NCBI GenBank assembly: GCA_021268355.1
Contig: JAJETY010000006.1
Location: forward strand, 1-47,787
Direction of reading: 5' to 3'
DNA: 47,787 bases
Source: Candidatus Nitrosopumilus sp.
GTDB taxonomy: Archaea; Thermoproteota; Nitrososphaeria; Nitrososphaerales; Nitrosopumilaceae
The position numbers and the translations under genes were made by a program. The notes below the pieces were generated by a model that saw only the letters and a list, made by a program, of their open reading frames with translations, was not told the DNA's origin and did no database searches. Positions 26,433 through 37,136 of the stretch are shown here, one piece after another (the first letter of the stretch is position 1; each line of letters opens with the position of its first letter).

Positions 26433-27509
26433 ATGAAAGCAGTCGTATACAATGAATATGCACCAGATGATAATTACGCTAAGATCCTTAAAGTCCAGGA
26501 TATAGACGAACCAAAACCAAAATCAGATGAGGTAATTTTTACCAATAAAGCATCTGCCCTAAATTATAATGACATTTGGGGAATGAGAGGAGTTCCAGTA
26601 GCAGTTCCTCTCCCACACGTTTCAGGTTCTGATGTAGCTGGAGATGTTATCGCCGTAGGCGAAGACGTTAAAAATTTCAAAGTAGGTGACAGAGTTGTTT
26701 CTCACTCTAACCTTGCATGTAGAGTTTGTAAAGCATGTACTGATGGACGAGAATTTGACTGTACCCGAAGACAAGTTTGGGGCTTCCAAACTGGACCTCT
26801 ATGGGGTGCATACTCTGAACAAATTCACCTACCCGAAGTTAATGTTTCAAAAATTCCTGATGGAGTTTCATATGAAGATGCAGCAGCAGCTTCAATGACT
26901 ATTCTTACATCGTGGCACATGTTAGTTGGTAGAGCTAACATTACTCCAGGTCAAACAGTACTCATTATGGGTGGTGGTTCTGGTGTCGGAAGCTATGCAA
27001 TTCAAATTGCAAAATTATACAACTGTGATGTAATTGCAACTGCAAGTCCAGACAAGCTAGACAAATGTCTAGAACTTGGTGCAGATTATGCAGTAGACCA
27101 CAGAAAAGACGATTGGAGCAAAGAAGTCTTTAAGATATCCAAAGAAATTGCAAAAACAAAAGGTGAAGCACCAGGTATTGATCTTGCATTTGATCACATT
27201 GGTCAAACTCACTTCAACAAGCAACTAACATTACTCAAGTATGGTGCAACACTTGTTTCATGTGGTGCAACAACCGGTTATGATGCACAAATAGATCTTA
27301 GACATATCTTCTTCAAAGGAATCAATGTTCTAGGTTCAACCCAAGGAACTAAAGCTGAACTAGATCAAGGTCTCTATTGGATGGGTCAAGGAAAGATAAA
27401 ATCAATTGTTGATTCTGTCTTTACCTTTGAACAAGCAGCAGAGGCTCATACAAAAATGCTAAAGGGCGACTTCTTTGGCAAAATCATAATGAAACCTGAA
27501 GGCGCTTAG
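26433..27509 (+). CDS. Zinc-type alcohol dehydrogenase/enoyl reductase family protein
   Basis: Medium-chain dehydrogenase/reductase with NAD(P)H. The start at 26433 (MKAVVYNEYAP) matches both the family and the promoter. A GroES-like domain includes HVSGSDVAGDVIAVGEDV and the structural zinc site CRVCKACTDGREFDC. The Rossmann domain has GGGSGVGSYAIQIAK near 187-201. Family members include crotonyl-CoA and acryloyl-CoA reductases of archaeal carbon-fixation cycles; the latter would fit a CO2-fixing ammonia oxidiser, but sequence alone does not settle substrate. The CitE-like gene lies 7 bases downstream, probably the same operon. Confidence 0.88.
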   Translation: MKAVVYNEYAPDDNYAKILKVQDIDEPKPKSDEVIFTNKASALNYNDIWGMRGVPVAVPLPHVSGSDVAGDVIAVGEDVKNFKVGDRVVSHSNLACRVCKACTDGREFDCTRRQVWGFQTGPLWGAYSEQIHLPEVNVSKIPDGVSYEDAAAASMTILTSWHMLVGRANITPGQTVLIMGGGSGVGSYAIQIAKLYNCDVIATASPDKLDKCLELGADYAVDHRKDDWSKEVFKISKEIAKTKGEAPGIDLAFDHIGQTHFNKQLTLLKYGATLVSCGATTGYDAQIDLRHIFFKGINVLGSTQGTKAELDQGLYWMGQGKIKSIVDSVFTFEQAAEAHTKMLKGDFFGKIIMKPEGA

Positions 27510-27516
27510 TCATTTA

Positions 27517-28371
27517 ATGACTCAGCTCTTCAGAAGTCTCATTTTTGTTCCTGGAAATAATCCTAGATTTCTAGAAAAAGCAAAAAAGATTCAGGCTGAT
27601 ATTGTCTGCTTTGATTTGGAGGATTCTGTTCCAGACGGTGAAAAAGTAACTGCAAGAAAGCTAATCAAATCTGCCCTTAAATCTAGAAATTCATACGAAT
27701 CTTCAATTTTTGTTCGTACAAATTCTCCTCTATCTGGCAAAATTCCATCTGATCTAAAAGAAATTATTCAAAAAGGAATTGATGGAATTGTAATTCCCAA
27801 AGTAAACAACACAAAAGAGCTAAAAAAGATTGAAAAAATAATTGTTGGATTGGAAAAATCAAGAAAACTCAAATCTATTCAAATTATTCCTTCAATAGAA
27901 TCTGCAGAAGGTGTTGTTAATACATACCAAATTGCTTCTAGTAGCAAGAGAGTTGTTGCAGTAGTTTTTGGAGTATTTGATCTTCTAAATGATCTTGGTG
28001 TAGAATATACAAAGGATGCAGAAGGTGCAAAATATTCTAGAGGAAAAATACCTGTTGACGCACGTGCTGCTGGCGTAGCTGCAATAGATGCAATTTGGCA
28101 AGACCTTAAAGATTCTAAGGGACTAGAAAATGATTGTAAGATTGGAAAAAGTCTAGGTTATTCAGGAAAGAGTATAATTCATCCCGATCATATTTCTGTA
28201 ATCCATAAATTATTTCATCCAAACAAAAGTGAAATTGAATGGGCTAAAAAAGTTTGTAAAACTTATCTGGAATCAAAAAAGCAAGGAAAAGGAGCCACTA
28301 CTATTGAAGGAAAGATGATTGATGAAGTTCACTTTAAACAAGCAAAGACGTTACTAGAACTAGTTAAATAA
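27517..28371 (+). CDS. HpcH/HpaI aldolase family, CitE-like lyase
   Basis: Mg-dependent C-C lyase acting on acyl-CoA esters such as malyl-CoA or citramalyl-CoA. The 284 residues form a TIM barrel with the CitE pattern: RSLIFVPGNNPRFLEKA (6-22), DIVCFDLEDSVPDGEK, IIPSIESAEGV (metal-binding Glu), VFGVFDLLNDLGVEY and GKSIIHPDHI. Residue choices fit the CitE/malyl-CoA lyase group. The gene is close behind an MDR-type dehydrogenase, implying a shared acyl-CoA pathway; the actual substrate is not evident. Confidence 0.9.
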   Translation: MTQLFRSLIFVPGNNPRFLEKAKKIQADIVCFDLEDSVPDGEKVTARKLIKSALKSRNSYESSIFVRTNSPLSGKIPSDLKEIIQKGIDGIVIPKVNNTKELKKIEKIIVGLEKSRKLKSIQIIPSIESAEGVVNTYQIASSSKRVVAVVFGVFDLLNDLGVEYTKDAEGAKYSRGKIPVDARAAGVAAIDAIWQDLKDSKGLENDCKIGKSLGYSGKSIIHPDHISVIHKLFHPNKSEIEWAKKVCKTYLESKKQGKGATTIEGKMIDEVHFKQAKTLLELVK

Positions 28372-34670: not shown

Positions 34671-34988
34671 TTGACAGACAGCATATTTGGGCAGGTAATT
34701 GCAGTAAGAAAATTTGTTAATGGAGACATTGAATTAGATTTCTATCATGATGATAAAGTGACTCAATACCGATATTCATCAGATCCGAGTCGATTGGGAA
34801 ACTTCCCAAAAGAACTTGCTGAAACCTTGGCATCTGCACTGTCTTCAGATATCTGCATTGAAATTTTCTTTGCAGATGATGGAACCCCAACACATATCCA
34901 ATTGGAAGAATGTGATGATGAAGATGATGATGAAGATGATGATGAAGATGATGATGAAGATGATGATGAAGATGATGATGATGATTAG
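34671..34988 (+). CDS. Small protein with an acidic repeat tail
   Basis: The 105-residue product starts at TTG, 2 bases after the hemerythrin stop. Residues 1-80 form a compact domain (FGQVIAVRKFVNGDIELDFY, TQYRYSSDPSRLGNFPKELA) of unknown family. The last 25 residues are EDDD repeats. The acidic tail could bind metal or basic proteins; it is opposite in charge to the Lys-rich protein two genes upstream. Function unknown. Confidence 0.75.
   Translation: MTDSIFGQVIAVRKFVNGDIELDFYHDDKVTQYRYSSDPSRLGNFPKELAETLASALSSDICIEIFFADDGTPTHIQLEECDDEDDDEDDDEDDDEDDDEDDDDD
34914..34985 (+). repeat. 12-bp tandem repeat encoding Asp/Glu tail
   Basis: About six copies of gaagatgatgat make up the 3' end of the acidic-tail gene, with the last copy drifting. 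Like the array at the window start, it is a 12-base coding microsatellite likely to vary in length. Confidence 0.9.
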
Positions 34989-34995
34989 AAGATCT

Positions 34996-35108
34996 TGACG
35001 AGGACTTGTCATAGAGGAATCATGAACTTCAAGTGTATCTCAAAGCTCAAGGCGTTCCCAAGATCTCTTTGATCTTCACTCAATACATGTCGTCGAGTGT
35101 CCTCGTCA
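34996..35108 (-). ncRNA. Candidate structured RNA, about 113 nt
   Basis: The ends form a perfect 10-bp helix: TGACGAGGAC at 34996-35005 and its complement at 35099-35108. Inside are a second perfect hairpin (AAGATC-N5-GATCTT, 35060-35076) and a third stem (CACTC/GAGTG, 35077-35099), giving a multi-branched fold. GC is about 44%, well above neighbouring intergenic DNA. On the minus strand, a TATA-like element (acttaaat as read on the plus strand, centre about 35134) lies 26 bases upstream of 35108, placing transcription start exactly at the closing helix. It matches no RNA family I can recognise; I checked for tRNA, 5S and SRP features and found none. Confidence 0.6.
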
Positions 35109-35129
35109 CATATAATACGCTAAAATTGT

Positions 35130-35137
35130 ACTTAAAT
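35130..35137 (-). promoter_or_regulatory. Minus-strand TATA-like element for the candidate RNA
   Basis: On the minus strand this reads ATTTAAGT. Its centre is 26 bases upstream of 35108, the first base of the closing helix. The spacing agrees with the protein-gene promoters in this window. Confidence 0.5.
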
Positions 35138-35164: not shown

Positions 35165-36556
35165 TTATTCTACGTAATGATGATGAGTCAAGTTATCATA
35201 GAATCTGACTGATTTTAGATTTACGAATTCTAACATTCCATATCTTGATAACTCTCTTCCAAATCCACTATGTTTTATTCCACCAAATGGGATTCTGGGA
35301 TCTGAAATAACAACATTGTTTACACTAACAATTCCCGATTCAATTCTTCTTGACATTTTGTCTGCCTTAGCAAGATCTTTGGTCCAAATACTTGCACCTA
35401 ATCCAAATTCACTATCATTTGCCATCTTAATTGCTTCACTTTCATTCTCTACAATTGTTATGGGTGCCACTGGTCCAAAAGTTTCCTCTTTTGCTATTCT
35501 CATATCTGGTGTAATATTTGTCAAAATTGTTGGTTTGTAGAAATATCCCTTAGCATCTATCTCTTCTCCTCCTAACAAGACTTCCGCACCTTTTGCCTTT
35601 GCATCCTCAACAATACCTGAAATTGTTTCTAACCCATCTTTACTTGATAGTGGACCAATATCTGTTTCAATTGACATTGGATCCCCTACCTTTAGTTGAG
35701 ATGCCTTTTTGATAAATAACTCAATAAAGTCTTTAGCAATATTCTTGCCTACAAAGAATCTTTTTGAGGCAACGCAACTTTGACCACAATTGATGAATCT
35801 TCCTTTAACTGCTCCTTCTGCTGCCTTTTCTATAATGGCATCATCTAAAACAATGAAAGGATCACTCCCACCTAATTCTAAAACACATTTTTTTAGATTC
35901 ATTGCAGATCTCTCACCAACCTTTGCTCCTGCATTAGTACTTCCAGTGAATGTAACTGCATTAACTTCTGAATCAATTAGGTGATTTGCAGAATCGACAC
36001 TCCCAATAACAGTAGAAAACACACCTTCAGGTATTCCCGCATCTGCAAATGCTTTTTCAATTTCTATTCCAGATTGCATGGTCACTCTAGATGGTTTCAT
36101 GACAATTACATTTCCTGCCATCAAACATGGAGCTGCAAATCTTAGAGCTTGCCAATATGGAAAATTCCATGGCATAATGGAACCAATTACCCCTAATGGC
36201 TCAAATGTAAGAAAACTCTTTCTAGCATCAGTGTTTAATACTTCATCAGAAAGAAAACTGTCTCCATGATCTGCATAAAACTCTAAAGCCCATGCACATT
36301 TTTCAACTTCGCCAATTGATTCTTTTAGTGCCTTACCCATTTCACTAGTTGCAATTTTTGCTAACTCTGTTTTGTTTTTCTTCAAATGTTCAACTAAATT
36401 GTAAATGTAACTTCTCCGTTTTTCATAATCTTTTTTCCATTCTGGAAATGCCCTTTTTGATTTTCTAACTAATTCAAATACCTGATCTTTATCCATTGCT
36501 GAAAATGTGGTAATATCTTCACCTGTTGCTGGATTTACTGTAGTGATCTGACTCAG
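35165..36556 (-). CDS. Aldehyde dehydrogenase (succinate-semialdehyde type), possible non-AUG start
   Basis: NAD(P)-dependent oxidation of an aldehyde to the acid. From the ATG at 36496 the product is 443 residues, with MPWNFPYWQ, VLELGGSDPF (catalytic Glu) and NCGQSCVAS (catalytic Cys). But the same frame continues upstream to 36562 and encodes ITTVNPATGEDITTFSA, the usual N-terminal strand of this family. No ATG, GTG or TTG lies there; a CTG at 36554-36556 sits about 26-28 bases after a TATA-like AATAAATAAG on the minus strand. I give the extended gene; if only AUG is used, it starts at 36496. The succinate-semialdehyde role suits the 4-hydroxybutyrate part of the carbon cycle but is not proven. 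Confidence 0.85.
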   Translation of the reverse strand: MSQITTVNPATGEDITTFSAMDKDQVFELVRKSKRAFPEWKKDYEKRRSYIYNLVEHLKKNKTELAKIATSEMGKALKESIGEVEKCAWALEFYADHGDSFLSDEVLNTDARKSFLTFEPLGVIGSIMPWNFPYWQALRFAAPCLMAGNVIVMKPSRVTMQSGIEIEKAFADAGIPEGVFSTVIGSVDSANHLIDSEVNAVTFTGSTNAGAKVGERSAMNLKKCVLELGGSDPFIVLDDAIIEKAAEGAVKGRFINCGQSCVASKRFFVGKNIAKDFIELFIKKASQLKVGDPMSIETDIGPLSSKDGLETISGIVEDAKAKGAEVLLGGEEIDAKGYFYKPTILTNITPDMRIAKEETFGPVAPITIVENESEAIKMANDSEFGLGASIWTKDLAKADKMSRRIESGIVSVNNVVISDPRIPFGGIKHSGFGRELSRYGMLEFVNLKSVRFYDNLTHHHYVE

Positions 36557-36620: not shown

Positions 36621-37136
36621 TTAGAAAATCTGCTGCATATCTTTTTTGATTTCATCAATTTTCTTTTGATATGCCTTTTTTGATTTATCATTCTTTTTTA
36701 GATTTAATACATTTCCACATGAGGGACACTTGAACATTCCTTCAAGTGCATCTTCAAATGTTACTCGTGGACAATCCTCATTTCCACAATGATAAAAATC
36801 TGATGCATTTTCATAATCTAATCTTTGTTGCAATCTCTCTTCGATTTTCTTTTTTTGATTTTCAATGAAATGTTCTACTTCCTCTCTCCTTGTTCTCCAT
36901 CTATAGACAAACCATCCTTTTCTTTCATCTTTTACTCTAATTCCTGTAATGAGTGATTTTCCAAAAAGATCATACAACACCTTTCTCACCATGTTGATTC
37001 TAAGTCCAGTAGAGCTAGCAATCTCTTCATCTGTAGCATCTTCTGCTTTCAATAGGGAACGAGCAACTTTGAGATATTCGTCTCCTCCGATCATAGAAGC
37101 AATTCTAACAAAAGGATCTTCGTATTTATCTACCAA
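36621..37136 (-). CDS. tfe: Transcription factor E (TFE alpha)
   Basis: Archaeal TFIIE-alpha homologue that helps RNA polymerase open promoter DNA. The 171 residues have an extended winged helix (~1-85: EEIASSTGLRINMVRKVLYDL, GWFVYRWRTRREEV), a coiled linker (~90-110) and a C4 zinc ribbon (CGNEDCPR...CPSCGN, ~117-143), then a Lys-rich tail. Size and order match archaeal TFE. It is the last gene of a minus-strand block with aTrm56 and HflX. Confidence 0.95.
   Translation of the reverse strand: MVDKYEDPFVRIASMIGGDEYLKVARSLLKAEDATDEEIASSTGLRINMVRKVLYDLFGKSLITGIRVKDERKGWFVYRWRTRREEVEHFIENQKKKIEERLQQRLDYENASDFYHCGNEDCPRVTFEDALEGMFKCPSCGNVLNLKKNDKSKKAYQKKIDEIKKDMQQIF

Follow-up and report, generated by a model that had tools for sequence, protein, structure and literature searches.

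A conserved structured RNA with a dedicated promoter element, and its sister family, in the Nitrosopumilaceae

The locus and its fold

The window analysed here is the whole 47,787-nt stretch of contig JAJETY010000006.1 from a Candidatus Nitrosopumilus genome. On its minus strand, in the gap between an aldehyde dehydrogenase (ALDH) gene and a convergent open reading frame (ORF) with an acidic tail, lies a 113-nt segment with 44% GC, referred to below as RNA A (Table 1). The tail of the convergent ORF (34905–34988) is a GAT/GAA codon repeat whose stop precedes RNA A, and in most close relatives the same ORF finishes within RNA A as a DEDxVxEES-type tail. In 12 close homologues the ORF extends into the 3′ end of RNA A, covering its final 28 nt (16 nt in one); here the ORF ends 8 nt short of the RNA, and the P1 helix that closes the fold is still intact.

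Table 1. Features of the RNA A locus, numbered by position in the window.
Feature	Position	Strand	Remarks
RNA A	34996..35108	(-)	113-nt structured non-coding RNA; closing helix P1 and three inner hairpins; covariation in 23 members
P1 5′ arm, UGACGAGGAC	35099..35108	(-)	CGAG core common to family B
Predicted transcript start of RNA A	35107/35108	(-)	
P1 3′ arm, GUCCUCGUCA	34996..35005	(-)	In relatives, overlaps C-terminal codons of the convergent acidic-tail ORF; no overlap in this genome
P2a hairpin	35078..35098	(-)	5 of 9 pairs changed on both sides
P2b hairpin	35060..35076	(-)	Missing from three-way-junction members L057, L058 and L060
P3 long interrupted hairpin	35015..35059	(-)	Lower stem GGAA/UUCC, internal loop, upper stem, AUAC apical loop
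Extended promoter, TTAAGTACAATTTTAGCGTA	35116..35135	(-)	TATA octamer at 35128–35135
Upstream neighbour, ALDH (PF00171)	35165..36496	(-)	Stop about 57 nt ahead of RNA A
Convergent neighbour, acidic-tail ORF	34671..34988	(+)	No Pfam match; GAT/GAA codon repeat changes the tail here

The predicted minus-strand fold has a free energy of -40.9 kcal/mol (z -4.58) that none of 200 shuffles equalled, while the plus strand of the same segment reaches a z of only -1.98. When both strands of the window were scanned with a sliding frame of 113 nt, RNA A surpassed all 2374 other positions in both minimum free energy and z, and a tRNA in the window was also less stable. Further stretches with z below -4 were returned at 27446–27558(-), 36686–36798(+) and 35646–35758(-), the last of which falls within the ALDH gene.

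The first-pass annotation had proposed a structured non-coding RNA closed by a perfect 10-bp helix, holding two more stems and having about 44% GC. The helix, in which TGACGAGGAC at 34996–35005 pairs with 35099–35108, and the GC content both held; the stem count held in part, the inner hairpins being three in number. Its further claim that structure, GC and promoter spacing are independent signals also held only in part, as GC and stability are linked.

Two additional features were considered and set aside: kissing between the P2a and P3 loops (UGUAU/AUACA), which suits this genome and, by eye, not most relatives, and a small ORF within the RNAs, whose reading frames (again by eye) are not maintained among relatives.

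Relatives of RNA A and covariation

Searched at the DNA level, 95 genomes from the window's genus yielded 12 strong homologues, 77–91% identical to RNA A, which lie between an ALDH gene and the convergent acidic-tail ORF; next after that ORF comes a hemerythrin gene. A covariance model built from 13 sequences, against which the window copy scores 119 bits, matched 26 of 250 Nitrosopumilaceae genomes, in four genera. Three of these matches (L059, L062 and L063) are weak, AT-rich copies at the ALDH locus. Among the hits of the analysis as a whole, one that proved to be coding sequence (L133) and one on the reverse strand (L065) were removed as false, and another (L119) was counted as doubtful. 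Clear homologues of RNA A are present in 22 other genomes from the four genera, 14 of them in the window's genus, and RNA A is single-copy in this genome. The closest relatives score 114–139 bits on the RNA A strand versus 10–14 bits on the complement, which identifies the minus strand as the RNA strand.

In the alignment of 23 members, 94.7% of pair cells hold standard pairs, and for 15 of the 41 pairs at least one sequence has both bases changed. The double-changed cells number 33, against 9.0+-2.5 in shuffles (none of 500 had as many), and sliding the pair partners lowers pairing to 33–50%. The strongest covariation is found in P2a and upper P3, while the P3 internal loop, C[GU]CC[UG]UG opposite CAUGA, is almost invariant. 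It should be stressed that these cell counts lean towards structure because the 23-member alignment was fitted to the model. An unfitted MAFFT alignment of the 13 sequences gives the same fold with only 2 doubly changed pairs, a number that reflects how close those sequences are. Conservation of the 3′ arm is by itself ambiguous because in relatives this arm overlaps the end of the convergent ORF. The first-pass annotation had named absence of conservation and covarying pairs in relatives as grounds for refutation; this has now been checked, and 22 diverged homologues with 15 covarying pairs favour an RNA. Its central proposal of a structured minus-strand RNA is therefore supported by covariation, a conserved promoter and strand-specific scores, with transcription remaining inferred; that RNA A belongs to a larger family with a sister gene was beyond what it could see.

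The surroundings of the family vary. In genera g1 and g11, RNA A lies about 60 nt after the ALDH gene and faces the acidic-tail ORF, which in g11 ends at the edge of an RNA whose P1 helix is still intact. An exact-pattern scan of named genomes matched MAGs of Nitrosopumilus, a single-cell genome of Marine Group I and Nitrosarchaeum, which identifies g1 as Nitrosopumilus and makes Nitrosarchaeum the probable identity of g11. No ALDH gene adjoins the C-type member L060, the g4 members or L050. A three-way-junction form of RNA A (L060, L057 and L058, from two genera) is found near UspA and/or a NirK-like multicopper oxidase, and one family member sits between the two. The L050 copy has 54% GC and different neighbours and comes from a GC-rich contig of genome G025, a contig that could be foreign or mis-binned. 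In two of the weak copies, L059 and L063, the P1 5′ arm and the fold have been lost (z -1.3) and the 3′ side, which is coding in relatives, is retained; these are likely to be decayed copies, representing an apparent natural loss of RNA A.

The promoter element and sister family B

A TATA-like element, TTAAGTACAATTTT, lies at 35122–35135(-). The first-pass annotation had taken such an element to place the transcript start at the closing helix, and this held in that the spacing is conserved in relatives, the start itself being an inference. In both families the RNA starts about 30 nt downstream of an extended TATA element that is itself conserved, TTAA[AG]TATNATTTTRRCGTA; the TTAA-to-CGAG distance is 30–31 nt in 22 of the 23 A members and in 47 of the 60 B members examined. 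The pattern TTAARTA-N14-26-RACGAGRA occurs at exactly two sites in this genome, at A and B, a count that is no proof by itself because a reversed-pattern control also yields 2. When a 20-nt promoter consensus was used, the best two sites in the genome were those ahead of B (0 mismatches) and A (1 mismatch), and no others fell within 2 mismatches; the other nine sites have 3 mismatches, which is chance level, and they are fewer than the 18 of the control. With a covarying fold on one strand and a promoter of its own at fixed distance, RNA A meets the criteria for a stand-alone non-coding RNA gene, as judged from sequence only.

Family B first surfaced as weak matches of the family A search in other contexts (L019, L021 and L028). 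Its members are about 104 nt long, with the same closing helix and promoter as A and different inner hairpins. A B model built from those three matched 86 of the 250 Nitrosopumilaceae genomes, and the family is present in about 85, with at most 4 copies each. This genome has a single B gene, at C3:39883-39987(+) (equivalent to L094:2001-2105). The closed, 1,645,259-base genome G006 has both RNAs, with A at 1468832-1468947(+) and B at 630617-630722(-). The B consensus runs from RACGAGAA into a hairpin with the cap UCUGCGU[CA]GUAGA, then a second hairpin whose internal loop contains UCAUGUUA, and then UCUCGUU, often with a U run. Among 66 members, 23 of the 34 pairs are doubly changed, and the 143 double-changed cells compare with 34.9+-5.0 in shuffles (0 of 500 as many). 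It is possible that A and B share ancestry, a view that rests on P1, the promoter and the layout, the full-length alignment not being significant. Direct pairing between A and B was also considered and rejected, as 19 of 200 shuffles did as well as the -47.3 kcal/mol obtained.

The neighbours of B differ widely between genomes. In this and several related genomes it precedes one particular small zinc-ribbon-like ORF, c11, in most cases at a distance of about 60 nt, and for that reason a leader role in the c11 branch is conceivable. Two genomes, G041 (L111-L114) and G014 (L106-L108), have three or four B copies, and the weakest copies of such genomes, L108 and L114, are apparently decayed. Since B is found in many contexts and A at both ALDH and UspA/NirK-like loci, neither is tied to one host gene.

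Neither family A nor family B, nor the distant A members, matched any Rfam 15 family above its gathering cut-off, and at E values up to 10 only low-scoring chance matches were seen. The first-pass statement that the segment matches no recognised RNA family thus held, the Infernal-type check it suggested having given none. Searches of 400 class genomes from 82 genera, with a refined model in the case of B, gave no match to either family outside the Nitrosopumilaceae; weak members elsewhere may have been missed because these class-wide searches used strict filters. Viral contigs contained no match to the A or B patterns. The literature searched contains no description of the family, and an earlier mention of the transcript cannot be excluded, as the search did not extend to subscription journals, the N. 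maritimus genome paper among them.

Interpretation and comparison with known systems

The identity of the gene, the fold, its covariation, the conservation of the promoter, the existence of a sister gene and the restriction to Nitrosopumilaceae are shown. These give strong support to A and B being conserved genes for RNA, each with a promoter element of its own, and to RNA A being an unannotated member of a previously uncatalogued small-RNA family of ammonia-oxidizing archaea, its expression being inferred. As to what these genes do, our main reading is that A and B are a stand-alone, co-regulated pair that would act in trans, more probably by binding protein than by pairing through a seed. 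We give it a probability of roughly 0.5, as transcription, co-regulation, trans action, the protein partner and function are all inferences.

In this reading, RNA polymerase would start at the UG of UGACGAG, about 25 nt downstream of the TATA element TTAAGTAC, as inferred from the fixed spacing. The transcript would fold on itself, with P1 joining the two ends, P2a, P2b and P3 radiating from the junction, and the paired ends stabilising the RNA. RNA B would use a promoter of this kind too and would share the closing helix, with other inner hairpins, and because this promoter type is common to both in one genome, the two are probably expressed together. Trans action is inferred from context independence. 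The conserved unpaired or internal-loop elements are the P3 loop of A with its AUAC apical loop and, in B, the capped hairpin plus UCAUGUUA. A protein-binding regulator or scaffold, that is, a ribonucleoprotein (RNP), would suit such stem-embedded elements better than an open antisense seed, and protein binding is favoured because the invariant bases form internal loops and a hairpin cap with no long open stretch. Against the main reading, there are no expression data, and trans action and a partner rest only on context independence and the position of conserved bases; the 57-nt spacing after ALDH could also suit an RNA derived from a 3′ UTR, and UCAUGUUA of B may yet be a pairing seed.

The most serious rival, which remains possible, is a trans-acting antisense sRNA in which a signal would activate the promoter common to A and B, and a conserved loop (UCAUGUUA in B, the P2/P3 loops in A) would pair with mRNAs, the start codon being one conceivable site; in genomes with B, TAACATGA-type complements would then be expected where orthologous genes begin. 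A stand-alone gene with a dedicated promoter and paralogues with variable inner loops would fit, as would UCAUGUUA, a conserved and unpaired run of 8 nt with AUG in its complement. However, the invariant bases are mostly found in stems or in internal loops that are short, and A has no long conserved open stretch. Less likely is that RNA A is a 3′-UTR or terminator structure of the ALDH mRNA, or acts in cis as an antisense element against the convergent ORF. Its constant place after ALDH, convergent with the ORF, in g1 and g11 and the overlap of the last 16–28 nt with the ORF in close relatives speak for this, but RNA A has its own TATA element at fixed spacing, the P3 module and P1 also occur away from ALDH (L057, L058 and L060), this promoter also precedes sister B, whose contexts are unrelated, and there is no ORF overlap in this genome or in g11.

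A riboswitch-like ligand binder, an H/ACA or C/D guide RNA or an rRNA-pairing RNA is very unlikely. The conserved P3 internal loop does look like a binding pocket, and an ACA triplet 3′ of P3 is invariant in the 13 closest sequences, but Rfam riboswitch and snoRNA families all fell below cut-off and the ACA is missing at that place in the g4 and g11 members and L050. A cis-regulatory leader or riboswitch would keep one place ahead of a regulated gene on its own strand, and this does not fit, as A faces a convergent gene, with no downstream gene to control, and B contexts vary. Complementarity to rRNA does not exceed chance: the longest match is 10 nt, and 69 of 200 shuffles did at least as well, in an assembly that lacks part of the LSU. 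Finally, inverted repeats are frequent in AT-rich intergenic places, and a chance fold or functionless mobile repeat might be envisioned; this is all but excluded by the compensatory changes in both families, by the rank of RNA A in the stability scan, its single copy and the absence of viral matches, and by the decayed L059 and L063, which lose the fold while the arm that codes in relatives stays.

Beyond the main reading of a co-regulated, protein-binding pair, a bolder possibility is that A and B are two forms of an unknown, Nitrosopumilaceae-specific ribonucleoprotein class with exchangeable inner hairpins, a common closing helix and a dedicated promoter. Few cells in the ocean are as abundant as ammonia-oxidizing archaea, and no described regulatory RNA family was found for them in the literature searched; two related RNAs with a near-unique common promoter in a streamlined 1.3-Mb genome hint at a regulon or an RNP.

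Among known systems, RNase P RNA (RF00373) and archaeal SRP RNA (RF01857) are, like RNA A, stable structured RNAs of this genome, and RNA A is neither because both match elsewhere, on contigs C59 and C18. With archaeal H/ACA guide RNAs it shares a stem with an internal loop and, in its closest relatives, a downstream ACA. This identity was promising in the 13 sequences and was rejected: unlike those guides, the family loses the ACA in other genera, has no recognised kink-turn, joins its ends by a long closing helix and has no rRNA complementarity above chance. Tan1 of marine group II Euryarchaeota, a structured 229-nt RNA that is lineage-specific and outside Rfam (PMC5069720), resembles RNA A in being a lineage-specific marine archaeal non-coding RNA without an Rfam entry; the lineage differs, and the sequences were not compared. 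Archaeal trans-encoded sRNAs such as Methanosarcina sRNA154 and the haloarchaeal sRNAs are likewise stand-alone and intergenic, with their own promoters, lengths of about 100–140 nt and stable folds. No sequence or structural relation to these has been shown, and unlike them, A and B have a near-unique promoter and a closing helix in common and are confined to the Nitrosopumilaceae.
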